Assembly: GCA_017512745.1 (NCBI GenBank)
Contig: JAFWEV010000098.1
Coordinates: 1 to 64,000 of the forward strand
DNA: 64,000 nt
From: Oscillospiraceae bacterium
Lineage (GTDB): Bacteria > Bacillota > Clostridia > Oscillospirales > Ruminococcaceae
Direction: 5' to 3'
Part shown: positions 377 through 39,113 of the stretch, in pieces
Numbering within the stretch: position 1 is the first letter of the stretch
Layout: each line of letters begins with the position of its first letter
The notes under the pieces: generated by a model
Database searches by the model: none
Told to the model about the DNA's origin: nothing
The model's input: only the letters and a program-made list of their open reading frames with translations
Translations under genes and position numbers: made by a program

Positions 377-425
377 TTGACATCTCTGCTCGACAGTTGT
401 AGACTATACGTACTTTACAACTGTA
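377..425 (+). promoter_or_regulatory. blaI-like promoter with two BlaI-type operators
   Basis: A -35 TTGACA (377-382) and -10 TAGACT (400-405) are spaced by 17 bp. Two dyads of the BlaI/MecI type overlap the promoter: GACAGTTGTA (392-401), which covers the -10 region, and TACAACTGTA (416-425) in the initial transcribed region. Their centres are 24 bp apart. Both are followed by the half-site continuation GTAGAC. The placement predicts autorepression by the gene downstream. The same half-site recurs at 34288-34321 and 37884-37899. Confidence 0.75.
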
Positions 426-442
426 GACTGGAGTTGGTATAT

Positions 443-805
443 ATGACCCCGATAAGGCTCAGCGAGAGTGAGATGAGATTCATGAAGATGATCTGGAACA
501 GACAGCCTGTTCACTCTTCGGTGCTGGTTGCTCTTTGCGAAGAACAGTTCGGATGGAAGAAATCCACCACATATACAATGCTCAAAAGGCTTGAGCTCAA
601 AGGCGCCGTAAAGAACGAGAACACAATAGTCAAGGCGCTTGCCGATGAGGATGATGTCAGATCAAAAGAGAGCGACCGATTCGTAACGGAACAGTTCGAC
701 GGGTCTTTGCCGAAGTTCATTGCGGCTTTCCTTGGGGACAAAAAAATTACTGATGCGGAGGCTGAGGAACTCAAGAGGCTCATTGATTCATACGTAGAGG
801 ACTGA
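443..805 (+). CDS. BlaI/MecI/CopY-family transcriptional repressor
   Basis: A 120-residue winged-helix protein of the usual BlaI/MecI length. The N-terminal region has the LSESEMRFMKMIW pattern and the recognition part GWKKSTTYTMLKRLELKGAV; the C-terminal half is the helical dimerisation region. ATG 443 is chosen over the upstream frame opening at 377 because GGAG at 430-433 is well spaced from it and the upstream stretch is promoter and operator DNA. It is followed 2 nt later by the M56 sensor gene, the standard BlaI-BlaR1 arrangement in which the membrane peptidase triggers cleavage of the repressor. The operators in its own promoter imply autoregulation. The signal sensed is unknown; no beta-lactamase is nearby. 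Confidence 0.88.
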   Translation: MTPIRLSESEMRFMKMIWNRQPVHSSVLVALCEEQFGWKKSTTYTMLKRLELKGAVKNENTIVKALADEDDVRSKESDRFVTEQFDGSLPKFIAAFLGDKKITDAEAEELKRLIDSYVED

Positions 806-807
806 AT

Positions 808-3165
808 ATGATGAAGACGGTTTTTCTAAGCGTGGTCAACATGAGCATAACGGCCGGGTACGTTATACTGGCTGTCATGTTGGCGAGATTGATGCTCAGG
901 AATGCTCCGAAAAAGTATTCATATGCCCTGTGGAGCGCTGTGGCTTTCAGGCTGTGCTGTCCGTTTTCATTGAGCTCGGAACTGAGTTTCTTCAACCTCA
1001 GGATAGAGGATAGCGGGAAAACGGCCATGGATCTCAGGGATGTCCCCACAGTGTTTTCGACACACGGCAGTACGTCATCCGTCGCTGCGGCGGAACGGGA
1101 TATCATCTATGAGACCGTGATACCGAGCACCGGTATAGAGAGTCTGGACAAGGCGGTCACAGCGACGGCGCCGGTCAGGCAGATGAATGCTGCAGGGATT
1201 CTTGCGGTCATATGGGCTGCAGGAGTTCTGATCTTTCTGATATACGGAATAGTATCATGTATCAGGATCGGACGAAGGATATCTTCAGCCATAAGGATGG
1301 AGGACAACGTCTGGGAGTCCGATGATATAGGCTCTCCGTTTATATTCGGGATCCTGAGACCAAGAATATATATCCCTTTCGGACTTGGATACACATCGCA
1401 GCGCATGGCAGTTCTGCATGAGAAGCAGCATCTTGCAAGGCACGATCACATGATCAAGATGGGCGCGTTCATCCTGCTCGCGGTCAACTGGTTCAATCCT
1501 CTCTGCTGGATCGCATTCGACATGATGACCCGGGATATGGAAATGAGCTGCGACGAAAGTGTGCTCGACAGGAACGTACATATCAAGAGGATATATAGTC
1601 TCGCGCTGCTTTCTTTTGCGGCAGAGACGAGATTTCCCGCACCGAGTCCCGTAGCTTTCGGAGAGACATCCGTGAAGGCCAGGATCCGGAATATACTCGC
1701 TCACAAAAAGACGAAGATGACCGTTACGGTCATATCCGTGATTGTTGTTGCAGCAGTCATGCTTGGCTGCGCGACCAATCCGGTGGATCACGTGGGAAAA
1801 CCGGTGTTCAATATGCTCACCGGAACCGAATCGCAGAATGTTCTCGAAAATCCGGTAGCTGTAACAGTAAGGAATACCCCTTCCGCGAGACCGTTCTACG
1901 GGCTTGACAGGGCAGATATCGTCTATGAATACGAAGTCGCCGGCGGAGTTACAAGATATACGGCAGTATTCTCGTCTATCGATGATATAGAAGCAATAGG
2001 CCCTGTGTTTGAGATGTACGACGTGTCTCTGAGACTAACTGCTCCTTATGGCGCAGTATCGGTGTGTACCGGAGCGAGCCAGTCCGATTCAGTGAAGATC
2101 CGAGAAGCCGTGGCTGCAAACGGACTTAAAGTTCTTGACGGTGAAACGGCAGAAGATCTCTATCATACAGACGCCAGCAGGGTCGGGCAGTATGCCCCGG
2201 ACAACAACTATTTTCTGTCTATGGATGTGCTCTCTGCGGAAGCGGGAGATACAGTCGTCTTTGACGCAGAGTCGAGGGCACCGGTCTTCAGCTTTGCAGC
2301 TGAGGGACAGGATGTTCTTGAAGATACAATGCCCGCCGACAGGATCGAATGGGATTTTTCTTCCAGAGAAATCGACATAATGGCCCCCGAAAAAGGTCTG
2401 ATCGGGACTACAGGATACAAGGGCACTTTTGAATATGACTCTTCATCAGGCCGATACAGAAAGATCCTCTTTGACGGTATAGGCGGAGACGGCAAGACTC
2501 TTATGTTCGATAATGTATTCCTCGTTCTGGCCGGCGGCGGTTATGATGAAAGAGATGAATTCACTTATGACCTCTCCACCGGAGGAAACGCGTATTACTT
2601 CTCTCATGGCAAATATATTGAATGCAGATGGGATAAAGGCAACGGAGGATATGAAGAACCTCTGAGGTTCGTCGACAGTGAGGGAAACGACATCAGCGTC
2701 AGCACCGGAACTTCATATATAGGTCTATTGCGGATTGGTATGGCAGAGAGCCTCAAGATCAACGGTATGCAGAAAATATTCTTTATCGATGCGCCGACGG
2801 AGGGGTCCATGATAGTTCCGGTCGCAGACGATCAGTTCATCTCAAGAGGCTTTACGCAAAACCACACTGGCATCGACTATGTAGCGCAGCTGGGGAAAGA
2901 AGTGTCTGCCGCATACGAAGGCGTTGTCAAAGAAACCGGTTTCGAAGAGAAGCGGGGCAACTATGTTGTCATTGAGCACGGCGGAGACATACTGACCCAA
3001 TATAGCCACATGGAATCCATAAGTGTTGAATCCGGGAATCATGTAATGCAGGGTGATATCATAGGTTTGGTGGGAAGTACAGGTATGTCTACCGGACCAC
3101 ACCTGGACTTTCGTGTGATCGTAAAGGGCGAAGAAGTGGATCCCGTTATTTACCTTATGCAATAA
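808..3165 (+). CDS. BlaR1-like M56 metallopeptidase fused to DUF3048-like and M23 domains
   Basis: A 785-residue membrane protein. Residues 1-330 form a BlaR1/MecR1-type M56 peptidase with several membrane helices and the zinc motif HEKQH (H204, E205, H208) followed by a downstream EMSCDE segment. Residues about 345-660 resemble the YerB/DUF3048 fold (ENPVAVTVRN, RADIVYEYEVAGGVTRY). Residues about 675-785 are an M23/LytM domain with HTGID (H686, D690), a GNYVVIEHGG strand and a SHME segment, ending in GPHLDF. The second histidine of the usual HxH pair is Asp767. The classical penicillin-binding sensor domain is absent. Likely role: a transmembrane sensor-protease that signals to the adjacent BlaI-like repressor. 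The M23 part may bind peptidoglycan rather than cut it. Confidence 0.85.
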   Translation: MMKTVFLSVVNMSITAGYVILAVMLARLMLRNAPKKYSYALWSAVAFRLCCPFSLSSELSFFNLRIEDSGKTAMDLRDVPTVFSTHGSTSSVAAAERDIIYETVIPSTGIESLDKAVTATAPVRQMNAAGILAVIWAAGVLIFLIYGIVSCIRIGRRISSAIRMEDNVWESDDIGSPFIFGILRPRIYIPFGLGYTSQRMAVLHEKQHLARHDHMIKMGAFILLAVNWFNPLCWIAFDMMTRDMEMSCDESVLDRNVHIKRIYSLALLSFAAETRFPAPSPVAFGETSVKARIRNILAHKKTKMTVTVISVIVVAAVMLGCATNPVDHVGKPVFNMLTGTESQNVLENPVAVTVRNTPSARPFYGLDRADIVYEYEVAGGVTRYTAVFSSIDDIEAIGPVFEMYDVSLRLTAPYGAVSVCTGASQSDSVKIREAVAANGLKVLDGETAEDLYHTDASRVGQYAPDNNYFLSMDVLSAEAGDTVVFDAESRAPVFSFAAEGQDVLEDTMPADRIEWDFSSREIDIMAPEKGLIGTTGYKGTFEYDSSSGRYRKILFDGIGGDGKTLMFDNVFLVLAGGGYDERDEFTYDLSTGGNAYYFSHGKYIECRWDKGNGGYEEPLRFVDSEGNDISVSTGTSYIGLLRIGMAESLKINGMQKIFFIDAPTEGSMIVPVADDQFISRGFTQNHTGIDYVAQLGKEVSAAYEGVVKETGFEEKRGNYVVIEHGGDILTQYSHMESISVESGNHVMQGDIIGLVGSTGMSTGPHLDFRVIVKGEEVDPVIYLMQ

Positions 3166-24821: not shown

Positions 24822-27362
24822 CTATCTGTAGTATGAGTCTACCATGGCAGATGACTGTTCTACGGCTTCATCAATGGAGATGGATCCTGAGAATAGATTA
24901 TCTGCTATTTTTGATAATTCCCACATAAGCACATGGTCTATTATCTGAACATCGCCAAGATCATCATATATTGAATCGACTTTCATAATGTCAGACTCAA
25001 AGAATTTATGATATTCATTCTCGTTTGCGTAGGATCGCATGTGTGATCCCACGGATGATGCAGAATCTTCGTTCACAGGCATGAACCCCCAAATAGGAGC
25101 CTGAAAGCCGAAATTGATACTACCGAACGAATCCTGGAACGACTTATCAAGGGCAGCATTTACGTAAGCGAGACTGTGATCCGGATAAGCGGTATTTTTG
25201 TTGATGCCTATAGCGATTGGTATCACGTAAGGATCTTCTGTGAATGTCGGAATGCTTGCGGGCTGGATATTCGGCCAGATTTCGGGGTGATCATAGTCCA
25301 GTTTATCGAACAGTTCATAGACGAATCTTATCGGTGTTCTTGCAGTCATATCATATGCAGGTTTTATAGTGTAGTTATTGTTCAATTGTGTAAGGAACAG
25401 GCTTCCTCGCAACACCGGCCCTTGATAATAGAATGAGGTCGTACCGCTTTGTCTGTACTCTGTTGGAACGCCTTTAGTTCTGTCACCCTCTTTAAGCTTG
25501 TAGTCACCATAGGGGTCACCATTGAGAACAGCTTCTTTATAGGAGGTGATATTATTCTGGGCTTGCGCACTGGAGATTGAATCAGTGATCGCCTTCAGCA
25601 TTTGTAAAAACAGGCGATATTTTTCAGTGTCAAGGTGATCATCCCGAATGAGTTCTGATTGATTCAGCATATAGAATCTATCAAACATATTGATATAATC
25701 GTCGAAATAGAATGGATAGTTGCCCGATTCATCATTTTCAATTGACTGTGTGAAAGCCTGAACAGATGATGTATCATAGCTTCCATTTCCGGTCGAGAAG
25801 AAGGCTGCTTGTTGAAACAGAAGAGGATAAGCGTATATATTTTCTCCAATGGACATTGAATTTAAAATGGATTCAGGGATATTTGCGGCAGGATCATTAT
25901 CAGACAGGTCCATGAGATATCCGTTTTCTCCCAACAGTTTTATGGTTTGAGCATCTGCAATTATGACATCAGGACCATGACCGGATGAAAACATGTCTAT
26001 TATATTGTTCTGCAGCTCACGATAATTGTCTATAAGGTCATCATAAGAAGGACTTCCCGGTATAAAGCTGATTCTTCCGTAGATGCCTCTGTCTTCATTT
26101 GGAATGATCTGCTTCCTGAAGGATACATCGTCTATGGTAGATGATAACTGCTTATCTATAAGCGATGTGCTGTCATTGCCGAACATATCCAAAACATGAA
26201 CAGACGGTGTATTAACAACAACCATATTCTGATCGTATTTGAGATATACAAGTGTGTTCTGATAGGCTCCTCTATCATTTCTTTCGGCCAAAGTTACATA
26301 GAAATCCTTATTTGGTCCCAATGCTATTTTCGTTGAGTAAACGGTTAAATCTATATCGCTGATCTGAGAAGAGTCTAATATGAGCTCCGGAATAGACCCA
26401 CCTAACATTATTCTGCTGATCCCGAGTGAATCGCAGTAATAAACGGCTTCCGAGTCAATCCCGCAGAGCTTGACTGATGATTCCGTATTGAAGATCGGAG
26501 AGATGTGGATCCCGGATGAAGATGGTTCAGAAAAGTCTGACGAAGAATAAATATGTATCTCTTCACCATCATAAATAGCATTTAACGTTCCGTCTGATAC
26601 CATATTACTTGCGTAGAAAGACTGGCGGATCGGAATATTATTTAACCAGGAAACCTCTTTGGATTCAGTATCAAAAACCAAATTCACGCAGTCGTTATAC
26701 CCTTCATATGAATCAGCTATCATTAATATCTTAGTCCCAGATACGACATATTCCCGTATCATATTAATAAATCTGTAATCATCTCCGTCTTTGGGATCGC
26801 GGGTCAGCTGCGATAATCCTTCAGATCCAAGCATTTCTTTGATATTGCCGAGATATTTCATATCGTCATATGCAGAGAGGTATTCAGCATCGGAGGAATA
26901 CTTGAACATATACATGTCGTTGCTGATATCAGAGCTGTTACCTATAGAGGTGAACAAATACAGATTATCATTATCATCAGCAACTATTCGTGAGTTGTCA
27001 TATAGATATTTGTCTTCCAACAGAGATCCTTTGAGATCGTTCCGTATTATATGTGAGTTCTTTAGCTCACCTTCAGAAAATGTATCAATGACTATACTGC
27101 GTTCGCTGAGAGGATATTCGATTTCGAATATAGCTTGAATATCTCCGTTTTGTTTTGTTCTCAAGCTGATACAATAACCGCTCGAATGGTTGACTTCTGC
27201 GATCGGTACTTCTTTGCTTGAATATCCTCCTGACACAGAGGCTGGTATTAGATCCTGAGCAGACTCTTCTGGTACAGGAGAACTGTTTGAACTGCAGCCG
27301 CAAAGGAGATTTAGCAGTAACATGAGAATCATTATGGCTGATACATATTTGTAGTGTTTCAT
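24822..27362 (-). CDS. Large lipoprotein: propeller-like N-terminus fused to type-1 solute-binding domain
   Basis: An 846-residue exported protein. The signal peptide ends in the lipobox LCGC (Cys23). Residues about 40-410 are a series of beta-strand blades (DDNDNLYLFTSIG, DSEAVYYCDSLGISR, GPNKDFYVTLAER), suggesting a beta-propeller. Residues about 420-846 resemble a type-1 extracellular solute-binding protein: SSGHGPDVIIADAQTIKLLGENGYLMDLSDNDPA, then YPLLF and a late PIAIGINKNT strand. No permease or ATPase is adjacent. Instead, the gene is divergent from a response regulator/kinase pair, so it may be an accessory ligand receptor for that kinase. A 784-residue paralogue repeats the arrangement at 29729-32083. 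AT-rich compared with flanks. Confidence 0.7.
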   Translation of the reverse strand: MKHYKYVSAIMILMLLLNLLCGCSSNSSPVPEESAQDLIPASVSGGYSSKEVPIAEVNHSSGYCISLRTKQNGDIQAIFEIEYPLSERSIVIDTFSEGELKNSHIIRNDLKGSLLEDKYLYDNSRIVADDNDNLYLFTSIGNSSDISNDMYMFKYSSDAEYLSAYDDMKYLGNIKEMLGSEGLSQLTRDPKDGDDYRFINMIREYVVSGTKILMIADSYEGYNDCVNLVFDTESKEVSWLNNIPIRQSFYASNMVSDGTLNAIYDGEEIHIYSSSDFSEPSSSGIHISPIFNTESSVKLCGIDSEAVYYCDSLGISRIMLGGSIPELILDSSQISDIDLTVYSTKIALGPNKDFYVTLAERNDRGAYQNTLVYLKYDQNMVVVNTPSVHVLDMFGNDSTSLIDKQLSSTIDDVSFRKQIIPNEDRGIYGRISFIPGSPSYDDLIDNYRELQNNIIDMFSSGHGPDVIIADAQTIKLLGENGYLMDLSDNDPAANIPESILNSMSIGENIYAYPLLFQQAAFFSTGNGSYDTSSVQAFTQSIENDESGNYPFYFDDYINMFDRFYMLNQSELIRDDHLDTEKYRLFLQMLKAITDSISSAQAQNNITSYKEAVLNGDPYGDYKLKEGDRTKGVPTEYRQSGTTSFYYQGPVLRGSLFLTQLNNNYTIKPAYDMTARTPIRFVYELFDKLDYDHPEIWPNIQPASIPTFTEDPYVIPIAIGINKNTAYPDHSLAYVNAALDKSFQDSFGSINFGFQAPIWGFMPVNEDSASSVGSHMRSYANENEYHKFFESDIMKVDSIYDDLGDVQIIDHVLMWELSKIADNLFSGSISIDEAVEQSSAMVDSYYR

Positions 27363-27435
27363 ATGAGTAGTCCTCCTTTTTAGATGAAAGATGCAGTTAT
27401 GTTCTTTCGGATATATCCATATTAGGAGAGTAGTC

Positions 27436-27510
27436 TTAAATTAATCTTTATTTGTTATTTAGATTATATTTGTTTTGTTTAAGAAATAATAAAGATTTGC
27501 GAGCTATGAT
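27436..27510 (+). promoter_or_regulatory. 11-bp phased repeats and promoter of two-component system 1
   Basis: T-rich half-sites start at 27436, 27447, 27458 and 27469 (TTAAAT, TTTATT, TTTAGA, TTTGTT), each 11 bp apart, then TAAGAA at 27480. A TATGAT -10 lies at 27505-27510. OmpR/PhoB-type regulators bind direct repeats with 11-bp phasing, so this is a probable binding array of the regulator below, serving both divergent genes. Confidence 0.5.
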
Positions 27511-27549
27511 AGAGGTAAAGAGAATTCTGATGATTAAGGGGAGATTCTT

Positions 27550-28227
27550 GTGAAAATACTTTTGATCGAAGATGATAAACAACTCAGCCGACAAGTCAGT
27601 ATGGGATTGAGAAGTGACGGCTTTGAGGTAGACCAGGCCTTTTCAGGTAGTGATGGTGTATATATGCTCACCGAGGGTAATTATGATGCAGCGGTCATTG
27701 ATTGGTTGCTTCCTGAAGTTGACGGGAAGCAAATAGTCAAAAGAGCAAGAGCTCAAGGTATCGTATGCCCCGTTATCATTGCAACAGCATTGGGGCAGGT
27801 TGAGAATAAGCTCGAATGTTTTGAGGCCGGTGCAGATGATTACATTGTCAAGCCTTTCGATGTCAGAGAACTCAGCGCTAGGATCAAAGCTCTGTTGCGC
27901 AGACCGAATACTGTTGTCAGGGAAGTGCTCAGTTTTGATGACATCAAGCTGGATATGACGGAGATGCAGCTTATTGGCAGCAAAGGAGGTGTCGGAGTTA
28001 CTCAGAAAGAGGCTGAGCTTTTAGAAGCATTCCTCACAAGACCGGGACATACTTTAACAAGAGAACTTCTTTTTTCGAGAGTGTGGGGAATAGAGGCGGA
28101 TACACTGGAAAGTGCCCTTGACATATATGTCCATTATTTGCGCAGACACCTTTCATTTGTATCGGATAATGTTATTATCAAAACTACTCGGGGAGTGGGG
28201 TATAAACTCACAAAGAAAGATGTATAA
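27550..28227 (+). CDS. OmpR/PhoB-family response regulator, module 1
   Basis: A 225-residue regulator. The receiver domain has the acidic pair E7-D8/D9 region IEDD, phospho-acceptor Asp51 (AAVIDWLLPEVDG) and the KPF signature in DDYIVKPFDVREL. The C-terminal winged helix ends in LDIYVHYLRRHLSF and TTRGVGYKL. Start is GTG 27550 with AAGGGGA upstream. It overlaps the kinase gene by 8 nt and is divergent from the propeller-SBP lipoprotein. Closely related to the regulator at 32240. Confidence 0.93.
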   Translation: MKILLIEDDKQLSRQVSMGLRSDGFEVDQAFSGSDGVYMLTEGNYDAAVIDWLLPEVDGKQIVKRARAQGIVCPVIIATALGQVENKLECFEAGADDYIVKPFDVRELSARIKALLRRPNTVVREVLSFDDIKLDMTEMQLIGSKGGVGVTQKEAELLEAFLTRPGHTLTRELLFSRVWGIEADTLESALDIYVHYLRRHLSFVSDNVIIKTTRGVGYKLTKKDV

Positions 28228-29491
28228 GTCGTTAAGAAATAGATTATGTATTACACTCTTTTTGCTGACGTCCTCAGTTGTATGTCTTGTTACTGCTATT
28301 CTATGCATCACAAACATAAGACAGGCTTCAAAAAGTTATCGGATTGAGAATGAGAAGAGTGTCAATGAAGTATTATCAAAGATCAGTGCGGAGAACCGTA
28401 TAAATGATATATGGATTGCCGAATTTGAGGATGATAAACAGGCACTGGTTGCTATTTTTGAAAATGGACATCAATACTCTTTTGGCGGAAGATATATCAC
28501 GGGTACAGGCAGAGATCTTTTGGTTGATATTGCACTTAATAAAACTGTTGAAGAAGGCCTGGATATCAGTAACAGCCTTTATTCTGTAGATGAGGCAATA
28601 GAATATGAGATCAAAACAGCAGACGGAAGCCGTTATTTCGGGGTAGCAAAAGCAGAAATGATAAATGCTTCCAAAATTACGGTGATAGCATTATTTGATG
28701 ATCAGCCTGTTATTGATGATATAAAAGGGATCGTCTCAGAATATGTGATTATTTCCTTCTTAGGATGTTTTATATTATTGATTATCAGCCGTTTCTTATC
28801 TTTTAAGATGGTTGAGCCTATTATAGAGGCCGACAGGAAACAAAAAGAATTTATAGCTGCAACAAGCCATGAGCTTAAAACACCGCTTGCTGTCATTAAA
28901 GCGGTGCTTTCGACTGCAGAAATGACTGGAAATAAGGATCAGGTTATATCTGTTGTTGCATCTGAGACGAACAGGATGACAAGACTCGTAAATGATCTTA
29001 TGTCTCTGGCGCGAAACGATATGGGAAAATGGAATGTAAATATAAAAGAAGTTGATTTGGAATTATTGATTCTGTCATGCTTTGAAAAATATGCCCCGGT
29101 TCTTGAGGCGAACGGACACGAGTTAACGCTTGATATTCCAGATTCGAAGTTGCCCAAAATAAAATCAGATGATGACAAGTTATCTGAAATATTAGAGATC
29201 TTGCTTAACAATGCAAACGACTACTCTGTTGAGAATGGAGTGATTACTTTGGGCGCTGGCAAATGCGGAAGAGGAATCGTGTTATTTGTCGAAGATGAAG
29301 GACCGGGTATCCCTGACAAGCTTAAACAAAAGGTTTTTGAAAGATTCTACAGAGCAGATCAGGGCAGGAGCGACAGAAATCATTTTGGGTTGGGCCTTTC
29401 CCTCGCTTCGGACTATGCAAAGCTAATTGGAGCAAGTATCGAGTTGAAGGATTCTCGGCATAGAGGATCCAGATTTGAAATAATTCTTTAA
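28220..29491 (+). CDS. Sensor histidine kinase, module 1
   Basis: A 423-residue kinase with two membrane helices (about residues 8-30 and 170-195) bracketing an extracytoplasmic domain of about 135 residues. The H-box is ATSHELKTPLAVIK, the N-box ILEILLNNANDYS, the G1 box VEDEGPGIPDKLKQKVFERFYRADQGRS and the G2 box HFGLGLSLA. There is no HAMP domain that I can see. ATG 28220 overlaps the regulator stop. The upstream in-frame extension to 28112 lies inside the regulator gene and is ignored. It probably reads a ligand with help from the divergent lipoprotein. Confidence 0.9.
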   Translation: MYKSLRNRLCITLFLLTSSVVCLVTAILCITNIRQASKSYRIENEKSVNEVLSKISAENRINDIWIAEFEDDKQALVAIFENGHQYSFGGRYITGTGRDLLVDIALNKTVEEGLDISNSLYSVDEAIEYEIKTADGSRYFGVAKAEMINASKITVIALFDDQPVIDDIKGIVSEYVIISFLGCFILLIISRFLSFKMVEPIIEADRKQKEFIAATSHELKTPLAVIKAVLSTAEMTGNKDQVISVVASETNRMTRLVNDLMSLARNDMGKWNVNIKEVDLELLILSCFEKYAPVLEANGHELTLDIPDSKLPKIKSDDDKLSEILEILLNNANDYSVENGVITLGAGKCGRGIVLFVEDEGPGIPDKLKQKVFERFYRADQGRSDRNHFGLGLSLASDYAKLIGASIELKDSRHRGSRFEIIL

Positions 29492-29597
29492 AGCTGTGAT
29501 TGGCAGTTAATTGTTTGTCGAAAGCTTAATATAACGGCATTACAGTTTGTCGGCCGTGTATATAAATCAGGAGACAGTAATTATCCGGAGGAGAGAA

Positions 29598-29627
29598 ACG
29601 GGGCTCGACATTTTCGTCGAGCCCCGT
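29598..29627. other. Very stable hairpin in the gap between the two modules
   Basis: A perfect 12-bp GC-rich stem (29598-29609 with 29616-29627) and 6-nt loop. No T-run follows on the plus strand; on the minus strand the tail is only partly T-rich. It is the only structure I see in 29492-29728 and may terminate the kinase transcript. Confidence 0.55.
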
Positions 29628-29728
29628 AACAATTTATCGGGATTTGTCTGAACTTATAGCAATCATATGTGTAAGTTAGCGGATGCTCCGAAGCAGAAGA
29701 ATGTATGAAAACATGATGGTTAACAATT

Positions 29729-32083
29729 CTAGAATTTGGAGTAGCTGTCAGTATATTCAACTGCTCTATTGACTACCTCATCTAGGGAACAGGCTCCGGT
29801 GAAGTACTCATTAGAGATTTGAGTCAAGCCATAGATATATTCATAATCCATTATCATTGGAGTGCTCATCTCTTGGTATTCTGTTCTCATAAAATCAATA
29901 TATGCAGAGAAGAAATCTGACCGTTCCGATTGCATTTGTTCATCCTCATAGAATTCAAGTGTTTTCGAAGATTCATTCATAGACGTTTCAAAAGCATTGA
30001 ATGACAGGGGCAGTCCTCCGAACATACCACTGTAAAGGAACTCTGTGTCTTCGTATACATATGTTTGACATTCGTCTGAAACAATGGCGTTAATTAGTTC
30101 TACACATTGTTCGGGATATTTGGTATTTGCATTTATGGCAACAGCATATCTTATTTCAAAGGGATGAGGATAGCCGGAATCAGGATTATGATAAACAAAT
30201 TGGGAGTCATTTAACATTGTTTGTGCGCGTTGTTTCATTGACTGATAGATTACTGAACTGGCACATGGATAAATCAAAATGTTAGTTACCATATCATTTG
30301 AAGAACTAATAGAGCTTTGAACACATCTATAAGGTTGTACTATATTGATATTGACAGGTTCGACTCCATAGTAATCATATGAGCGTTTTGATAAAGTAGT
30401 AATGTCGTTGACTGTTTTTATAATGTCTCTATAATTCTGAACAGTAAAATTATATCTGTTTGATATATAGAGAGATGCAAGTTCCGAGAATAATGTTGAA
30501 GAGAGATACGTGTTTAAGTAGCATTGACTGCCGTCTGATTCAAGCAACTCCTCTATTGAAATATCAGGATCTCCGTAGAGGATTGAAGTTTCTATGGCAA
30601 GCGGAACAGCATAGACAGTTTGCTCAGAGGAGAAAGCATTAGCGATACTTGATGAGATATTGGGATTGTTTATAGATCCGGCGAGATCTAACAGATATCC
30701 GTTATTCCCTAGTTCCATTATTGCAGAAGCATCCCACACGATTACGTCAGGGGCGTTTCCGTCTTCAAACAATTTCTGTAAATATGCATTCCCCGCATGT
30801 AATTCGGATAACAATGGCAGATCTTCTTCCGAATTGCGAAGCGCATGTCTCTGATTATTACTCAGAACACCACTATATTCTTCGGAAACATTTTTTGTTG
30901 AGACATATATTTGAGAATCTCTGACGGATTCGATTGCGTAATCTACGATAGCAGAGTCATCAAGGCACAGGAGGGAAATATTTGTTGCAGGTTTATACTG
31001 TATTTCAGGATCGAATTTATAGAATAATAATTTGCTTTCTTCTGTTTTTTCATTGTAATAAAGGATATAGAAGGAGTTGTTTTCTGATAATGTGGCACAG
31101 ACAGGCTGCCACATTGATGAATGCAAAAGACAGTTCTGTGTATCAAGAATTGTTTCTGTCAATGAACTTCCCTGTGGAATTCTGTTGACACCTTTACTAT
31201 CGATGTAATAGTAGAAATTGTCATTTATGCCCATCAGGATCGGGGTGCCGTAGTAAGGCCCCGGTATTCTCTTGTCATTGTTTTTTCCAGTTACCGCGCA
31301 TTGAGATGAAAGTTGCTCCTGTTTTTGCCCTGTGTGAAGGTCATAGGCATCAATAGACTCGTCACCGATATAGTAAAAGTTATCATCGTCAATAAAATAC
31401 CGCTGGGGATTCTGCGAAAAAATATCAATGACCAATTCATTGGTGACCTGACTTTCCATATTACCATAAATAATAAGTGAATCATTAGCATATGGTTCAA
31501 GATCATATCCGTGCCAAACAACTACGGTATTACCGTTACTGCTCGACTTGATGGTAGGAGAAGCACCATTCATAAGTGGCCTCTCAATATTGGTGCCTAA
31601 CATAATCTGGTGATAGCCAGAGTTGAAAGGTAGGACATTTTCGGGATATGCCACGATAGAATAATCAAAAACATCGCTTTCGGGAGATGCCGGATCAGAT
31701 AGACCGGAAGTAACATAATACATATTTCCGTTTGGATCTAGAGCGGGGCCGGCAATGGCATGAAACGGCATGTCAAAGAAGACTTCTTTTTCATAGCAGT
31801 ATTCTTTTGACGAAATTTCAGTAGTTTCAGAAAACTGTCTGACAACAGTAGTGATAGCAGAATCGGGAATGTAATCATATTTAAGAAAAACGCCGTTTTC
31901 TGCCGGATAAATCGTACAGCCGTACTCATCGGAGGAAGACCATACTTCCGTTTCTGAAAATCCTCCTAGAGGAGCGGCTTCTGATAACGGTTCTCCTTCA
32001 ATTACACTCTGTGTACCGCTGCATCCGGCAAAGAGTGAGACGATCATGCTTATGATCAATATAAAAGTAATTATTTTTTTCAT
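29729..32083 (-). CDS. Large lipoprotein: propeller-like N-terminus fused to solute-binding domain, paralogue 2
   Basis: A 784-residue paralogue of the protein at 24822-27362. The lipobox is LFAGC (Cys21). Residues about 40-380 form strand-rich blades (DPNGNMYYVTSGL, DDDNFYYIGDESIDAY, GINDNFYYYIDSKGVNR). The C-terminal half contains FEDGNAPDVIVWDASAIMELGNNGYLLDLAGS, matching the other copy's solute-binding signature, and IRYAVAINANTKYPEQCVELINAI near the end. As with copy 1, it is divergent from a response regulator and kinase, and no transporter partners are present. It is visibly AT-rich. Confidence 0.7.
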   Translation of the reverse strand: MKKIITFILIISMIVSLFAGCSGTQSVIEGEPLSEAAPLGGFSETEVWSSSDEYGCTIYPAENGVFLKYDYIPDSAITTVVRQFSETTEISSKEYCYEKEVFFDMPFHAIAGPALDPNGNMYYVTSGLSDPASPESDVFDYSIVAYPENVLPFNSGYHQIMLGTNIERPLMNGASPTIKSSSNGNTVVVWHGYDLEPYANDSLIIYGNMESQVTNELVIDIFSQNPQRYFIDDDNFYYIGDESIDAYDLHTGQKQEQLSSQCAVTGKNNDKRIPGPYYGTPILMGINDNFYYYIDSKGVNRIPQGSSLTETILDTQNCLLHSSMWQPVCATLSENNSFYILYYNEKTEESKLLFYKFDPEIQYKPATNISLLCLDDSAIVDYAIESVRDSQIYVSTKNVSEEYSGVLSNNQRHALRNSEEDLPLLSELHAGNAYLQKLFEDGNAPDVIVWDASAIMELGNNGYLLDLAGSINNPNISSSIANAFSSEQTVYAVPLAIETSILYGDPDISIEELLESDGSQCYLNTYLSSTLFSELASLYISNRYNFTVQNYRDIIKTVNDITTLSKRSYDYYGVEPVNINIVQPYRCVQSSISSSNDMVTNILIYPCASSVIYQSMKQRAQTMLNDSQFVYHNPDSGYPHPFEIRYAVAINANTKYPEQCVELINAIVSDECQTYVYEDTEFLYSGMFGGLPLSFNAFETSMNESSKTLEFYEDEQMQSERSDFFSAYIDFMRTEYQEMSTPMIMDYEYIYGLTQISNEYFTGACSLDEVVNRAVEYTDSYSKF

Positions 32084-32151
32084 TATACTAATCTCCTGTG
32101 ATTGTGAGGTGTGCTTACTATCGGATTACCAACAATGTATCTCACAGTCCC

Positions 32152-32216
32152 TTAGAATAGTTTTAGAAACAACATAGAATTATCTTAAGGTCTTTCTAAG
32201 ATAACACAACTATGAT
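32152..32216 (+). promoter_or_regulatory. Five 11-bp phased half-sites and promoter of two-component system 2
   Basis: Half-sites TTAGAA (32152), TTAGAA (32163), ATAGAA (32174), TTAAGG (32185) and CTAAGA (32196) recur every 11 bp exactly. A TATGAT -10 (32211-32216) follows 9 bp after the last site, so the array overlaps the -35 position. This is the pattern of an OmpR/PhoB-type activator site. The last arms also form a TTATCTTA/TAAGATAA dyad. Confidence 0.65.
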
Positions 32217-32239
32217 ATAGATTAGATGGAGGAGATATC

Positions 32240-32914
32240 ATGAAAGTGTTAATTGTTGAAGATGACCGAGACCTGAGCATGCAGATAAAGAGAGGGTTGG
32301 TTTCAATCGGCTTTGATGTTATACAGGCATTTGATGGAGAAGATGGTTTTTATCAGTTGTGCGAGGGATCCTGCGATATTGCCATAGTGGATCGGATGCT
32401 TCCGGTAATGAGTGGAACAGAGGTTATCAGTCGGATAAGAAAGATGGGAAAGGATATCCCAATCATTATAGCAACTGCCCTTGGAGATGTGGACGACAGA
32501 ATCAACGGATTGGACAGCGGTGCTGATGACTATATTGTAAAACCCTTTGATGTCAGGGAGTTAGCAGCAAGGATAAGGGCGTTAACAAGAAGGGCTGCCG
32601 GCGGCAGCGGCAATCAGTTGTCATTTGGCGATGTGATATTCAGCAAAGACGAACTTAAGATTAATGGCCCTCTTGGAGACCAAGCAGTCACCCCCACAGA
32701 AGCAGAGTTGATTGAAACTTTGATGAGAAATTCAGACAAAGTCATCACAAGAAATCAACTTTTCGTGAGGGTATGGGGTATAGATTCTGACTCATTGGAT
32801 GGATCATTGGATATATATATCCATTATGCCAGGAATCATTTAGCTAAAATATCACAAAGAACAACAATAAGAACCGTAAGAGGAAAAGGATACAGATTGG
32901 AATTTGAACAATAG
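32240..32914 (+). CDS. OmpR/PhoB-family response regulator, module 2
   Basis: A 224-residue regulator, clearly a paralogue of the one at 27550. It has VEDDRDLS at the front, phospho-acceptor Asp51 (AIVDRMLPVMSG), DDYIVKPFDVRELAARI, and the winged-helix end LDIYIHYARNHLAK with TVRGKGYRLEF. ATG is preceded by GGAGGAGAT. Its stop overlaps the kinase GTG start by one base. The phased repeats upstream are probably its own binding sites. Confidence 0.93.
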   Translation: MKVLIVEDDRDLSMQIKRGLVSIGFDVIQAFDGEDGFYQLCEGSCDIAIVDRMLPVMSGTEVISRIRKMGKDIPIIIATALGDVDDRINGLDSGADDYIVKPFDVRELAARIRALTRRAAGGSGNQLSFGDVIFSKDELKINGPLGDQAVTPTEAELIETLMRNSDKVITRNQLFVRVWGIDSDSLDGSLDIYIHYARNHLAKISQRTTIRTVRGKGYRLEFEQ

Positions 32915-34206
32915 TGGTTAACAAACTGAAAAAAAGGATCAGATTATCTGTCTGGGGATTGACGTCGCTGGTCCTGTTAGTTTTTGCTGTTTTTTCGTTT
33001 GTATTAAATTCGAACAGTATCAGGTTTAATTTCAGATCAGCATTGGACAATTACACCGAAATCGTAATCACTAAAATCAGATTAGATAATGCAGTCAGTA
33101 CCAATTGGATCAATACACTTGAAGCAGCGAACAACATTATTATCGGTATAAAGGATAATAACGGTAATGTGTATTTGTTTTCAGGCAATAATGAATTCAA
33201 GACATCAAGAGAAGTGTTGCTTAACAGAACATATGATATAGCAAGAGAAAATGGCGTTGCTGCCTATGAGCTTGAATTTATGTCAAGCACACTTTCAACT
33301 AGCATAACAGTCAATGGGGATAACGGTGATACTTATTTGTGTAAGGTTACTGTTATTCCTATCAAAGAATCGTATGTTGCGGTTTCAGTCATATTGTCGA
33401 ACGAGAAATATGAGAAAGATATTGAGAACTTATTATTCAGATATATTCTCATAATTGTGATTCTCGAAGCGATACTGTATCTTATCAGCAAAATTCTGGC
33501 GGAATATGCAGTGAAGCCTACCATTCAAAGCGAGAGAAGCCAAAGAGAATTTATCGCCTCAGTCAGTCATGAATTGCGAAGTCCGCTTGCAGTAATAAAA
33601 GCTGCCTCATCTACCGCTCAAATCAACGGGGATCATACTAAATTACCGTCGATTGTCGATTCTGAGGTGAACCGAATGTCACGGCTGGTAGAGGATTTAA
33701 TGACATTGTCGAAGGCTGATACTTCGGGATGGGAGATAGAGACTGAAGACATAGATTTAGATGATCTGACATTGAATATATATGAGAAGATAGTAGTTTT
33801 AGCCAATAACAGAAACCGATCAATTAGAATGATACCTGCTAAAGGTACTCTTCCGGTGATAAAAACTAACGGGATGAGATTGACGCAGATTATTCTGATT
33901 TTTTTCAATAACGCATGTGAGTATTCCACGGAGGGGAAGGAGATCACGTTCGGCGTTGTAAATAACAGCAAATGGATAAAACTCTATATCGGAGACCGGG
34001 GACCGGGAATTCCGGATAAAGAGAAGAAAAAGATATTTGAACGTTTTTACAGGGCAGATAAAAGCAGATCAGATAAAAAGCATTTTGGTCTCGGGTTATC
34101 TGTCGCAATGGCTCTTGCAAAAGCAATGAATATGGAAATAGGTGTTGATGACAACGAGTTCGGGGGATCTGATTTTTATATTCGGCTCAACAAACGAATA
34201 GAATGA
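32914..34206 (+). CDS. Sensor histidine kinase, module 2
   Basis: A 430-residue kinase, paralogous to the one at 28220. Two membrane helices (about 11-30 and 172-195) flank an extracytoplasmic domain. The H-box is SVSHELRSPLAVIK, the N-box ILIFFNNACEYS, and the ATP lid reads GDRGPGIPDKEKKKIFERFYRADKSRS with HFGLGLSVAMALAKAM. Start is GTG 32914 overlapping the regulator stop. Followed after 138 nt by the operator-controlled exported-protein array. Confidence 0.9.
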   Translation: MVNKLKKRIRLSVWGLTSLVLLVFAVFSFVLNSNSIRFNFRSALDNYTEIVITKIRLDNAVSTNWINTLEAANNIIIGIKDNNGNVYLFSGNNEFKTSREVLLNRTYDIARENGVAAYELEFMSSTLSTSITVNGDNGDTYLCKVTVIPIKESYVAVSVILSNEKYEKDIENLLFRYILIIVILEAILYLISKILAEYAVKPTIQSERSQREFIASVSHELRSPLAVIKAASSTAQINGDHTKLPSIVDSEVNRMSRLVEDLMTLSKADTSGWEIETEDIDLDDLTLNIYEKIVVLANNRNRSIRMIPAKGTLPVIKTNGMRLTQIILIFFNNACEYSTEGKEITFGVVNNSKWIKLYIGDRGPGIPDKEKKKIFERFYRADKSRSDKKHFGLGLSVAMALAKAMNMEIGVDDNEFGGSDFYIRLNKRIE

Positions 34207-34260
34207 TTTTGTAAACAAAGCTGCAATGATAAACAAATTGTAAATCAATCAAATAAAGAC

Positions 34261-34321
34261 TTTACTCTCATTCGCTGATGATGTATATTTAATGCGGTCT
34301 ACATATGTAGACTGCATTAAA
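34261..34321 (+). promoter_or_regulatory. Promoter with long BlaI-type palindromic operator
   Basis: TTTACT (34261-34266) and TATATT (34284-34289) are spaced by 17 bp. Directly after the -10 is a 34-bp dyad (34288-34321; two 17-nt arms with one mismatch) whose core is GTCTACATATGTAGAC. The central TACATATGTA is a textbook BlaI/MecI operator. It covers the expected transcription start, so it should repress 34345-37754. Confidence 0.75.
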
Positions 34322-34344
34322 TTATTACAGAATACGTTGTTGTA

Positions 34345-36138
34345 ATGAAAGACAAGAACAAAAGACTAAAGACAAAGATAATTACTGGATTTGGTTTGAC
34401 TGCAGCTTTAATAGCTGGAGTTTTGATGTTTTGCTTTTCCAAGAATGGTGTTGCAACTGAACAGTCAATAGAAGATCTAAGACAAGTGATTTCGGTACTG
34501 GATGCAGTTAATTACAACGAAAAAGGATTGCTTGCGTTTACTTCAGATCAAAATGATTCGGATACTGTTGTGTACTATAGTTTTAAGGATATGAGTTATT
34601 CGAAGGTTCAGCTTGATGGACTGAACAGAAACTATTATGGGTATTACAGCATCTACTCTATAGGTGATCTGTTCTATATTGTCCACATAGTACCTGAATA
34701 TAGTTCAGGTTCAATCGTATCTTATCTCGAAGACGTTGCGCCAAGTGTATGGACATTCGATGCTGATACGATGAAAGGTACGAAGCATTCGCTTCCGATA
34801 GATTACTATTTCCATGGTATTACTGCTTACTCAGAGTCATCTAGAGGACCTGAATCTATTATTATCAAGGCTTATGATCGAACTGATGAAAAGGTATGTA
34901 TGCTTCAAATTGAGTTAGATGATTGGAGTATCACAGAAACAGAAATGTCGTCGTATGAGGTAGCAGATGAGGTGCTGGAAACCATAAATGGTGATCTTGA
35001 GAGCAGCTTGATGAAGAGTCTTGATGGTGACGGATATTTATATAAATATTGTGCTTATAGAGATGAAACAACGCACCGTTATGGAGAACATATTTTATAC
35101 AGACACCAACCTGGAGCGCAGAACGAGCCAAATGTAGTGATAGATTCACTTTTCCCAGATGAATATTGGGCAGGTACTGTTTTTACTTTTATTATCAATG
35201 GTGGAAATGTCTATTACCACGGGATAAATGATATAAACGATGAACAGGCTGATTTTATCGGAGATATGGAAACAGGCACAGTCAGGATGATCAATAGATG
35301 CAGTTTGGAAGATGAATCTCCTTGGATAGTATATGGGGCAACTAGCAGCAAATTGATCCTATGCGAAAAAAACAGGCAACCATTAGGACAGGTAATCGAC
35401 CCTGAAATGATTGCTCTTGTAGATGTAACTGATTACTGTACTGGCGCATATAATCCGGCTTTTTTTAAAGGAGACTGTTTGACTCCGAAAGGTGATATGA
35501 ACTGCAGTTCAACAAGCGAGTTTCGAATGATGATCGAACATATGAGTGCCGTAGCACCGTGGCTTCAAACTGAGAAGGAGCAAATGAGTGGATCAACCGG
35601 ATTTATTTGTCGATATATTGATAATGCGGGTAATTCTTACATGCGGCTTAAAAGTATTTCGGATGAAGAAGAAGTAATTTTAAATATGTTTAATCCTCCA
35701 CAGGCACCATTCTTTGGAGATTGTATAACTAATGACCGCTATATATACCTTTTTATACAAGATAACGGACAAGACACTAACCGTTCGTCACTAACTGTTT
35801 ATTCACGGAATGGCGAACCGGTGGACAAAGTTCTTCTGGTGAACGATGAACACTTCTTCTCACCCAGCGGCATCGTATTTGACGCATTAACTGAAGACAT
35901 TCTATTTGTGACAATAGTCCGGGATAATTCTGGAGAACAATATTATCTCTGTCAATACGATTCGTTTGAACATTTAATTTATAGAACTGATTATGTATCC
36001 TCCACGCCTATAGTAATTGTTGGCTGTGGAGAAGGAAATATAGTAATACATACAGGCTATGATCTTCTCGACATGAAGTACACATCGACTCAAATTATTA
36101 ATCTCAAAGAATTCATAAATGGGGGAAATCCAAAATGA
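34345..36138 (+). CDS. Exported strand-rich (propeller-like) protein, array member 1
   Basis: A 597-residue protein with an N-terminal membrane/signal helix (IITGFGLTAALIAGVLMFCF) that lacks a clean lipobox. Residues about 35-375 match the two lipoproteins at 36567 and 37944: VVYYSFKDMSYSKVQLDGL, then IYRHQPG-type blade ILYRHQPGAQNEPNVVIDSLFPDEY and the shared end PEMIALVDVTDYCTGAYNPAFF. About 220 further residues (GNSYMRLKSISDEEEVILNMF, YIYLFIQDNG) look like an extra set of blades absent from the others. Function unknown. It is expressed from the promoter with the BlaI-type operator. Confidence 0.65.
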   Translation: MKDKNKRLKTKIITGFGLTAALIAGVLMFCFSKNGVATEQSIEDLRQVISVLDAVNYNEKGLLAFTSDQNDSDTVVYYSFKDMSYSKVQLDGLNRNYYGYYSIYSIGDLFYIVHIVPEYSSGSIVSYLEDVAPSVWTFDADTMKGTKHSLPIDYYFHGITAYSESSRGPESIIIKAYDRTDEKVCMLQIELDDWSITETEMSSYEVADEVLETINGDLESSLMKSLDGDGYLYKYCAYRDETTHRYGEHILYRHQPGAQNEPNVVIDSLFPDEYWAGTVFTFIINGGNVYYHGINDINDEQADFIGDMETGTVRMINRCSLEDESPWIVYGATSSKLILCEKNRQPLGQVIDPEMIALVDVTDYCTGAYNPAFFKGDCLTPKGDMNCSSTSEFRMMIEHMSAVAPWLQTEKEQMSGSTGFICRYIDNAGNSYMRLKSISDEEEVILNMFNPPQAPFFGDCITNDRYIYLFIQDNGQDTNRSSLTVYSRNGEPVDKVLLVNDEHFFSPSGIVFDALTEDILFVTIVRDNSGEQYYLCQYDSFEHLIYRTDYVSSTPIVIVGCGEGNIVIHTGYDLLDMKYTSTQIINLKEFINGGNPK

Positions 36139-36565
36139 GTAGTTTAAAAAATTAAGACATTAATTACATACATTCTTCTTTTCTTGTTGGTTTTCTTTAG
36201 CTGCTGGTGAAACGAAAATAATCAATGATGATATTTATCCTGGAGATTATGGTGTTGGAGCAAGTTATTTGTTTGTTTCTGATGGCGATTTCGTTTATTA
36301 CGTTGGTATCGATTCAATCAATCATTGCATAGCAAACTTTGTGGTGGAGACCGCAAGCGGAGAAGCAACAATGATTAAAGAGAATAACATTACTGATCAG
36401 GAACAATCATTCTATTGGGTATACGGAGTTGTTGAAGATAAACTGATTATGAGCAATAAATTTGAGATCAGCATGTCTTTTATGGATCCTGGGAGTTTTG
36501 CTATTGTAGACAAGAGTGATTATTTATCAGGAGTATATGAATTGACGTTCTTTACGGAGGGATAG
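36135..36565 (+). pseudogene. Decayed paralogue of the exported-protein array
   Basis: ATG 36135 overlaps the previous stop but reads only six codons (MSSLKN) before TAA. An AT-rich stretch that looks like a broken signal peptide follows. From about 36203 an open frame matches the last third of the 37944 protein: ETKIINDDIYPGDYG against DDIRVITDDLYPDGYG, then VYYVGIDSINHCIANFVVETASGEATMI and the shared end PGSFAIVDKSDYLSGVYELTFF. The middle two thirds of the gene are missing. I infer a deletion plus frameshift in a former array member. Confidence 0.75.
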
Positions 36566-36566
36566 A

Positions 36567-37754
36567 ATGAAAACTCTACGTGAAGTCATTTGTTTCTATA
36601 TTGTTGTATTGGCTATTCTGATGTGTTTCATAATATGCGGATGCACATCAGCTTCCAGCAGTAACAGCAGCGTCATGGAACAAGAGCAGGTTTCTGAAGA
36701 ATCTGAAACCCAAGATGCTTGTGAAGAGAAAGTGGAAGAATTGTTTGAGCCTGTCAAACCATATGACGATGAGGGATTCGTTACGATCGTTGGCGAGGAT
36801 ATCTATTATTACTCTTTTGACAGCATGACCTATATAAAGATTCCCCTTGTTGGTATAAAGACGAAAGTAGCGGGAGCCCACGCGCCAATAAGGATAGGCG
36901 ATAAAATATATATTATCCAGCACAGGTTATTTACAGGAGGTGGAAACACTTTTGTAGAGAACGGAGTCGACAATAATCTGTTTGTATATGACCTAAAGGC
37001 TAACTCTGCTGAGGTTATTGAGTTGCCGGAAGAGATATATTTTAGGGGCTTTGCAGTGTCTGTAAACAAATTAGAGAATCTTTTGCATGTTAACGGAGCA
37101 GTGAAAAAGGAAGACGGTTCAATAGATGTTAGGAGCTATGAGATATCTCTGGACAACTATTCGGTTATTGAGATCGACGAAATGCAGTCCAATGAAAATG
37201 CGGATCCCGCTAGTGAGTACTTACAGATTCGCGACACCGGAGCACAGGAGATTTTTCAGGATGTGAACGGTTCTGGGAATTGGTATGGGTATTCTGTTGA
37301 AAGAAAAGAGGGTGTTAAGCTGAGTGGCCCTATTGGAATAACGGATTATGATCGCATCATCTACAGATGTAAGAACGGGAGTGATGATGTGGAAGTCCTG
37401 ACAAAATCAGCGTACCCTGGTTCATACGCAAGGGGAGCGGTGGACTACGGATTCATTAGTATTGATAACCACATTTTCTATTGCGGTATCGATATTGTAA
37501 ATCAGACGATCTCGAATTTTATATTCAATACAGAATCTTGTATTGTTGAAAAAAGGGATGAAAAAGGCGATCTCTATACCACTACAGTATTTCTCGCTCC
37601 TTATGCATATATCGACGGAAGGTTAATATTGACCAATGTTAACAGAGGATTATCATTGCCGCATCTTACCCCGGAAGAAATCGCTGTAGTGGATTTGGAG
37701 GACTATATTGACGGCACTTACGAATTTGTGTTTTTTAGTCCTTCGGTACAATAA
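36567..37754 (+). CDS. Propeller-like lipoprotein, array member 2
   Basis: A 395-residue lipoprotein with lipobox IICGC, followed by a Ser/Glu-rich spacer. Strand-rich body: EDIYYYSFDSMTYIKIPLVGIKT, IGDKIYIIQHRLFTGGG, NNLFVYDLKANSAEVIELPEEIYFRG, then DYDRIIYRCKNGSDDVEVLTKSAYPGSYA and the conserved C-terminal PEEIAVVDLEDYIDGTYEFVFF. GGAGGG at 36556-36561 is its ribosome site, and no promoter is evident, so it is probably co-transcribed with 34345. Function unknown; may share a ligand or partner with the other members. Confidence 0.7.
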   Translation: MKTLREVICFYIVVLAILMCFIICGCTSASSSNSSVMEQEQVSEESETQDACEEKVEELFEPVKPYDDEGFVTIVGEDIYYYSFDSMTYIKIPLVGIKTKVAGAHAPIRIGDKIYIIQHRLFTGGGNTFVENGVDNNLFVYDLKANSAEVIELPEEIYFRGFAVSVNKLENLLHVNGAVKKEDGSIDVRSYEISLDNYSVIEIDEMQSNENADPASEYLQIRDTGAQEIFQDVNGSGNWYGYSVERKEGVKLSGPIGITDYDRIIYRCKNGSDDVEVLTKSAYPGSYARGAVDYGFISIDNHIFYCGIDIVNQTISNFIFNTESCIVEKRDEKGDLYTTTVFLAPYAYIDGRLILTNVNRGLSLPHLTPEEIAVVDLEDYIDGTYEFVFFSPSVQ

Positions 37755-37800
37755 AAGTATATGAGAACTTAGAGTGATAATAGTAGTACAGTTAAACATC

Positions 37801-37822
37801 GCCGCATAACGGCATTTTTTAA
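37801..37822 (+). terminator. Weak terminator after array member 2
   Basis: A short GCCG/CGGC stem with a 5-nt loop is followed by six T residues. Stability is low, so some read-through is possible. Confidence 0.5.
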
Positions 37823-37849
37823 TAATTTGTAAATATAACTTGTGATTGC

Positions 37850-37899
37850 TTTACAATAACAGTGCGAGTGGTAGAATGAAAAGGTCTACAGATGTAGAT
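37850..37899 (+). promoter_or_regulatory. Promoter with BlaI-type operator before array member 3
   Basis: TTTACA (37850-37855) and TAGAAT (37872-37877) are spaced by 16 bp. The dyad GTCTACAGATGTAGAT (37884-37899) lies 6 bp beyond the -10, over the likely start site, in the same position as the dyad at 34288. Confidence 0.7.
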
Positions 37900-37943
37900 T
37901 AAAGCTATTAGAACTATTTCGCTGCTTATGGAAGGTGACAATA

Positions 37944-39113
37944 ATGGGTCTGCGAATATTTAAAAAAGTTTTAGCAATATTATCAGTTGTGCTCTGCTGT
38001 TTTTGTATTATCTCATGCACCAACGGTAGAGCAGTGCCTGCAGACAGCGATGAGAGCAGTTCAAAGATAGAACTGCCCGAAACTGATAGTGAGTCATATT
38101 CAAATCATTTATATGAACCGGTAAAACAGAATGATGAATCCAGTTTTGCTGCATACAGATATCCATCCGGTGATTCAAGTTTGACAGATGAGGAGAAGAA
38201 TACCCTCGTGTATTATGATTTCTCATCGATGACTTACTCTGAGATCTCTGTAAAAGAAATCAAAAGGACTTCAACTGAAGGTGTATTTATGAATCCTTCT
38301 CCGATAATAGTGGAAGACAGGATCTACGTGTTTCAGCAGAGATATTACAAAGCTCCTGCAGTCGTTGAAATATATACGGATACAGACAATAAAGTATTTG
38401 TTTACAGTACGGAGACTGGGACCTCTGAAGTCTTTGATCTGCCTGAGAACTACTATTTTGAGGGTATGCTGAGCAGCGGACTTACGGATGGAAATGTTGT
38501 TTTGATCCGTGGTTGCGAAAAGCTTGAAGATGGCAGTGTTGAAGATGCAGTGTTCCAAATCGATCTTGACGACCTAAGTGTCGAAAAATCCGATATAGCT
38601 TTGAACGACATAACAATCAACCGAAAACTGTTTGAGGCAACCGGCGGCAGAACGCAGTATATGAACCTTGACGGTTCAAAGCGCTTTGCCTTTACAAGCG
38701 GCAACAGCAATGACGGGATACTGAAGTGGATTCTCTATGAAGCTGTTTACGGAACAGATGATATCAGGGTCATAACGGATGACCTGTATCCTGATGGGTA
38801 CGGGGCGACTATGAATAACTCCTATGTTTTTGATGATCAGTATGCATATTTCACCGGAATTAATATTGAAAAACAAACGGCAGCTGATTTCGTTCTCGAT
38901 TTGGCTGATGGTCAAGCGACAATAATCAATGAACAGGATGATCCGGAAGACACGATGTTCCTGACTGTCCGCGGCGCAACAGAAGATAAACTCATTCTGA
39001 CTCAAGAATATAATTTGCTCAATAATAGCGTTGATCCTGAAGCAATTGCAGTGGTGGAGAAAAGTGATTATCTGACAGGTGTATTTGAACCTGAGTTTTT
39101 CACAAAAGGATGA
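37944..39113 (+). CDS. Propeller-like lipoprotein, array member 3
   Basis: A 389-residue lipoprotein with lipobox IISC. The body repeats the array pattern: LVYYDFSSMTYSEISVKEIKR, VEDRIYVFQQRYYKAP, NKVFVYSTETGTSEVFDLPENYYFEG, then YGTDDIRVITDDLYPDGYGATMNNSYVFDDQYAYFTGINIEKQTAADFVLDLADGQ-type blades and PEAIAVVEKSDYLTGVFEPEFF. ATG 37944 is preferred to GTG 37935 since GAAGG lies just upstream. It has its own operator-controlled promoter. Function unknown. Confidence 0.7.
   Translation: MGLRIFKKVLAILSVVLCCFCIISCTNGRAVPADSDESSSKIELPETDSESYSNHLYEPVKQNDESSFAAYRYPSGDSSLTDEEKNTLVYYDFSSMTYSEISVKEIKRTSTEGVFMNPSPIIVEDRIYVFQQRYYKAPAVVEIYTDTDNKVFVYSTETGTSEVFDLPENYYFEGMLSSGLTDGNVVLIRGCEKLEDGSVEDAVFQIDLDDLSVEKSDIALNDITINRKLFEATGGRTQYMNLDGSKRFAFTSGNSNDGILKWILYEAVYGTDDIRVITDDLYPDGYGATMNNSYVFDDQYAYFTGINIEKQTAADFVLDLADGQATIINEQDDPEDTMFLTVRGATEDKLILTQEYNLLNNSVDPEAIAVVEKSDYLTGVFEPEFFTKG

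Follow-up and report, generated by a model that had tools for sequence, protein, structure and literature searches.

Does a BlaI/MecI-type repressor control an array of genes for exported propeller-like proteins that lies 34 kb from its own gene? The window, by which we mean the whole 64-kb stretch of DNA analysed here, comes from the beginning of contig 57 in a draft assembly of 2.52 Mb (completeness 90%, contamination 3%). A sequence-only reading of the window had placed operators of the same BlaI type at blaI and at the array, and had suggested that the repressor, released by its membrane sensor, acts at both. The blaI operon and its control region comprise the following features.

377..405, + strand: blaI promoter, TTGACA (377-382), 17 bp, TAGACT (400-405), read from the sequence
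389..404, strand not applicable: blaI operator 1, CTCGACAGTTGTAGAC, within the spacer and -10 of the blaI promoter
413..428, strand not applicable: blaI operator 2, CTTTACAACTGTAGAC, 24 bp downstream of operator 1
443..805, + strand: blaI, BlaI/MecI-type repressor, 120 aa (PF03965, E 2.8e-22; MecI structures match)
808..3165, + strand: membrane sensor with M56, DUF3048 and M23, 785 aa, the next gene after blaI (Pfam)

The Penicillinase_R domain of the blaI product scored 79.6 bits against a curated cut-off of 22.6, and TACA/TGTA-type dyads are present at the gene's own promoter, at 389-404 and 413-428. BlaR1 cleaves BlaI directly, between Asn101 and Phe102 (PMC9834060); at the aligned MecI/BlaI cleavage position the window BlaI keeps the Phe, and the preceding residue is Ala, not Asn. 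A pair of genes at 53600-55941 had sizes suggestive of a second BlaI-M56 pair and was ruled out by a domain search (Pfam).

The sensor had been described as an M56-M23 protein. Both domains are present (Pfam E 2.3e-47 for M56 and 9.8e-28 for M23), but the actual make-up is M56-DUF3048-M23, with E values of 5.6e-23 for DUF3048 and 1.9e-14 for DUF3048_C, and the zinc site of M23 is altered. The metallopeptidase HExxH of the sensor is retained as HEKQH. In the M23 domain (PF01551 match), HxxxD is kept as HTGID while HxH reads HLD; because of this replacement, the domain may bind instead of cutting, and degenerate M23 domains serve as binding partners elsewhere (PMC9662197). Pfam detected only DUF3048 and M23 beyond M56, and no penicillin-binding domain, and the match to blaR1_generic is restricted to residues 164-318, which are the M56 part. 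Relatives of this genome commonly encode M56 sensors whose extracellular parts are of other kinds. M23 is also C-terminal in 2 of 19 BlaI-linked M56 proteins of relatives, DUF3048 occurs in none of the 19, and no close relative of the sensor was found on the relatives' contigs searched. Thus, compared with M56-M23 fusion sensors, a combination already on record (PMC9662197), the sensor differs by the additional DUF3048 and by HLD in place of HxH.

The array, with its two promoters and operators, comprises the following features.

34261..34289, + strand: array promoter 1, TTTACT, 17 bp, TATATT
34297..34312, strand not applicable: array operator 1, GTCTACATATGTAGAC, at the centre of the near-perfect 34-bp dyad at 34288-34321
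34345..36138, + strand: exported propeller-like protein, 597 aa (array profile)
36206..36562, + strand: truncated array-protein copy, 38% identical to residues 275-392 of the 37935 protein
36567..37754, + strand: propeller-like lipoprotein, 395 aa, 28-31% identical to the 37935 protein
37850..37877, + strand: array promoter 2, TTTACA, 16 bp, TAGAAT, with TG preceding the -10
37884..37899, strand not applicable: array operator 2, GTCTACAGATGTAGAT, a near-perfect dyad
37935..39113, + strand: propeller-like lipoprotein, up to 392 aa, start GTG 37935 or ATG 37944

The proteins encoded from 34345, 36567 and 37935 and the truncated 36206 copy form one family. For the 37935 protein, the structure model shows a beta-rich protein with moderate confidence (mean pLDDT 74.5), and its best Foldseek matches are kelch propellers with E values of 1e-8 to 1e-5 and a TM-score of just ~0.37; propeller-like is therefore a fair, if unproven, name. 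The truncated gene (36170-36566), which lies between two intact ones, is probably a decayed duplicate or remnant, and by its position the 36567 gene belongs to the transcription unit of 34345. Among 120 relatives the family was absent but for two marginal matches, which in effect confines the array genes to this genome within that set.

The dyads reported at the array and at blaI were present at the positions given for them. The accompanying claim that those at the array sit just past a -10 holds: both array operators start 6-7 bp past the -10 of their promoters. Operator 1 of blaI, by contrast, overlaps its -10 (TAGACT, 400-405). The 34-bp dyad is a property of array site 1, to which the outer arms (34288-34321) are peculiar; the symmetry of array site 2 is confined to the 16-bp core. 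The reported match between array and blaI operators is one between related sites, with the blaI sites fitting the core less well: relative to GTCTACANNTGTAGAC, array site 1 has no mismatch, array site 2 has one and each blaI site has two. No second, paired operator was found in the array promoters, each of which has a single dyad. A fourth TACANNTGTA, at 37362, was set aside as an operator given its position inside a coding sequence.

We compared these sites with the blaI promoters of 29 relatives at family and order level, each represented by its best BlaI match (42-56% identity). A dyad of the type GTCTA-N6/7-TAGAC is present upstream of blaI in 28 of these 29 relatives, usually at the -10, and most have a second copy ~25-30 bp away; the TTGACA/TAGACT arrangement is also found at the blaI promoters of most relatives. 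With a score matrix built from the relatives' blaI promoters alone, i.e. with the own genome excluded, the four highest-ranking sites in the 64-kb window were blaI operator 2, blaI operator 1, array site 1 and array site 2, in this order. Random 64-kb sequences contained 0.47 and 1.6 sites scoring at least as high as the respective array sites. Chance alone thus yields a score as high as those at the array roughly once in 64 kb, and the argument rests on rank and position together. Moreover, BlaI_0696 of C. thermocellum binds GTCTAT inverted repeats five bases apart, as measured by DAP-seq and gel shift (PMC8457756), and this motif together with the relatives-only matrix bears out the BlaI-type form that the sequence-only reading had assigned to the operators. 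GTCTACATATGTAGAC also fits the 16-bp operator form RNYKACANNYGTMRNY that CopY requires (PMC7253601); CopY itself was not found in this genome, and the window BlaI, which scored 42.2 bits against the NCBIfam CopY model (cut-off 121.95), has no Cys-x-Cys metal motif in its 120-aa translation.

A genome-wide, pattern-based motif search, in which weaker regulon members may be missed, detected four sites with at most one mismatch to GTCTACANNTGTAGAC in 2.52 Mb compared to ~0.40 expected (P ~8e-4, a uniform-base estimate). Two are those at the array promoters, and the other two lie outside the window, at C8:2757 and C84:34873; all four are at promoters. An exact GTCTACANNTGTAGAC occurs in the genome only at array operator 1. 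Sites with two mismatches were set aside since the reversed control yields nearly as many.

The genome has three DUF3048 genes, i.e. those for the sensor of the blaI operon, a protein on C8 and a protein on C84, all of which have PF11258 and PF17479 above cut-off, and the two sites outside the window lie at the only two that are not in the blaI operon. The C8 site is inside a TTGACA-17-TAGACT promoter, as at blaI, ahead of the gene for a DUF3048 lipoprotein that matches the YerB structure 2psb (E 1.3e-16). The C84 site follows a TATAAT ahead of the gene for a 782-aa DUF3048 lipoprotein (L018:6509-8857) and has 16 consecutive bases in common with blaI operator 1, ACAGTTGTAGACTATA. The chance that two of four random sites land at these two genes is ~3e-8. 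That a site is present at all three DUF3048 genes is the strongest single argument for control by the regulator of the blaI operon itself. Altogether, we are highly confident that the sites in the window and on C8 and C84 are BlaI-family operators as judged by their sequence, and it is probable that a single BlaI/MecI-type repressor, most likely the product of 443-805, acts at all of them.

The C-terminal part of the C84 protein had no similarity to the array family by phmmer and its structure model is poor (pLDDT 43), leaving its reading as a propeller unsupported; this extension has almost no relatives among 394 genomes of the order. The exact motif was not found in 296 other genomes of the family, and no convincing operators were found at the DUF3048 genes of relatives; because of these two results, the small BlaI-type regulon of exported lipoproteins is probably lineage-specific. 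In one relative (G014, locus L139) a blaI-M56 pair is preceded by two DUF3048 genes in tandem, and in another (L141) DUF3048 genes and such a pair are 12 kb apart, which weakly hints at a wider link between DUF3048 and BlaI.

Control of the array by the window BlaI, as the sequence-only reading had proposed, is in keeping with the finding from the own-genome search that this protein is the sole Penicillinase_R in the assembly, but a second M56 sensor gives rise to the main rival reading. C2:1-2328 opens with a conserved M56 tail (GESSIKERILNVMRYRK...), which matches the same position in ~25 M56 proteins of relatives, several of them encoded next to blaI. This tail runs into propeller-like repeats of the array family, and the next gene, cut by the contig end, is for an array-type lipoprotein; the two together span C2:1-3664 (L092). 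The M56 sensor end on C2 implies a second BlaI, presumably unassembled: the assembly holds one M56 and one BlaI, so the partner of the C2 sensor is missing. This second BlaI, upstream of the M56-propeller sensor, could bind the array sites, leaving the window BlaI to control the blaI operon and the DUF3048 genes alone, or the two could share sites. Consistent with such a division, the innermost two bases differ slightly, being TA and GA at the array sites and GT/AC at blaI and C84. However, the C84 site combines the 16 bases in common with blaI operator 1 and the core of the array sites, so that one specificity explains all sites; moreover, the second BlaI is itself only deduced, and C2, which is 3.7 kb long and belongs to a draft with 3% contamination, could be foreign. 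We consider control of the array by a second BlaI, alone or jointly, unlikely. Regardless of which BlaI acts at the array, the C2 fusion strengthens the general link of M56-BlaI to propeller-like proteins.

The dyads could alternatively be targets of another regulator, such as the OmpR-type response regulator encoded at 32240-32914, which with its kinase forms a pair directly upstream of the array, or of an unrelated repressor. Both array promoters also have TTGTAAAT, at 34238-34245 and 37828-37835, 22-23 bp ahead of their -35, which is a better position for an activator; it is possibly a response regulator box that gives the array dual control. Direct repeats ahead of the -35 are the usual binding sites of OmpR-type regulators, and palindromes past the -10 are atypical for them. 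Moreover, the same dyad recurs at blaI and, on other contigs, at the two further DUF3048 genes, and the dyads match BlaI motifs from other genomes, making it improbable that they belong to a regulator of another kind. Finally, that the resemblance arose by chance in AT-rich promoters, as the once-per-window frequency of array-site scores and the lack of over-representation of exact GTCTA-N6-TAGAC (2 versus 6 for the reversed control) might suggest, is very unlikely because, in 2.52 Mb, each of the four sites having one mismatch or none falls at the promoter of a gene for an exported protein; these genes form two groups, and two of the sites are those at the DUF3048 genes outside the blaI operon.

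Based on control by the window BlaI, we suggest the following mechanism. A repressor dimer would bind across or just after the -10 and silence its own operon, the two transcription units of the array, the plain YerB-like DUF3048 lipoprotein and the DUF3048 protein with the long C-terminal extension. The M56 sensor would read an envelope signal with its extracellular DUF3048-M23 part, and the activated cytoplasmic metallopeptidase would cut BlaI, turning all targets on together; here, we infer removal of the repressor upon sensor activation from the likeness to BlaR1. A peptidoglycan fragment can loosen BlaI/MecI from DNA (PMC3305447), which makes wall turnover a natural candidate signal. The cell would in this way raise surface proteins that share domain types with the sensors (DUF3048, propeller-like), and these might serve as decoys, scavengers or wall-repair factors. 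More tentatively, BlaI-M56 pairs of this lineage might form an envelope-sensing network in which sensor ectodomains (DUF3048-M23, propeller-like repeats) and repressed exported proteins are drawn from the same families and a signal raises copies, soluble or anchored, of its own receptor domain; we found no description of such feedback for BlaI-BlaR1 systems.

As a type, the system would be a BlaI regulon in which both the sensor and the targets are unusual. Switching in response to beta-lactams is what BlaI-BlaR1 systems are mainly known for. The staphylococcal BlaI-BlaR1 and MecI-MecR1 systems share with it the repressor family (the best PDB matches are MecI structures), the adjoining M56 sensor and the TACA/TGTA half-sites; by contrast, the sensor described here is without a penicillin-binding domain, and no beta-lactamase or mecA-type target was seen. 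As in the BlaI_0696 regulon of C. thermocellum (PMC8457756), BlaI is encoded beside BlaR1-type genes, the operators are GTCTA...TAGAC repeats, and autoregulation is combined with a few distant operons. In C. thermocellum, 7 bases separate GTCTA and TAGAC and all targets have paired dyads, which that study treats as required (PMC8457756); here, the spacing is 6, the promoters other than that of blaI, such as those of the array, have single dyads, and the predicted target genes encode lipoproteins with DUF3048 or of the propeller-like kind. These targets can be named from sequence alone, and no DUF3048 gene detected in the genome falls outside them. We found no function for YerB/DUF3048 in the literature; the structure of YerB has been solved, and the protein is listed as unassigned (PMC13068155). 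Compared to YerB of Bacillus subtilis, DUF3048 is here also fused to an M56 sensor and, in another protein, to a long C-terminal extension. The regulon provides a testable context for this domain, in which an M56 protein would sense a signal from the envelope, and suggests that surface proteins, including those encoded 34 kb away, are switched on together with a cell-surface sensor that has related domains.

The region 24822-39113 has a GC content of 0.39 compared to 0.487 across the window and contains two response regulator-kinase pairs; each pair adjoins a divergent lipoprotein that carries a solute-binding domain. The region is possibly an acquired, expanding island. The two large lipoproteins, encoded on the - strand at 24822-27362 and 29729-32083, have C-terminal SBP_bac domains and are mutually related over two stretches with 27% and 25% identity.
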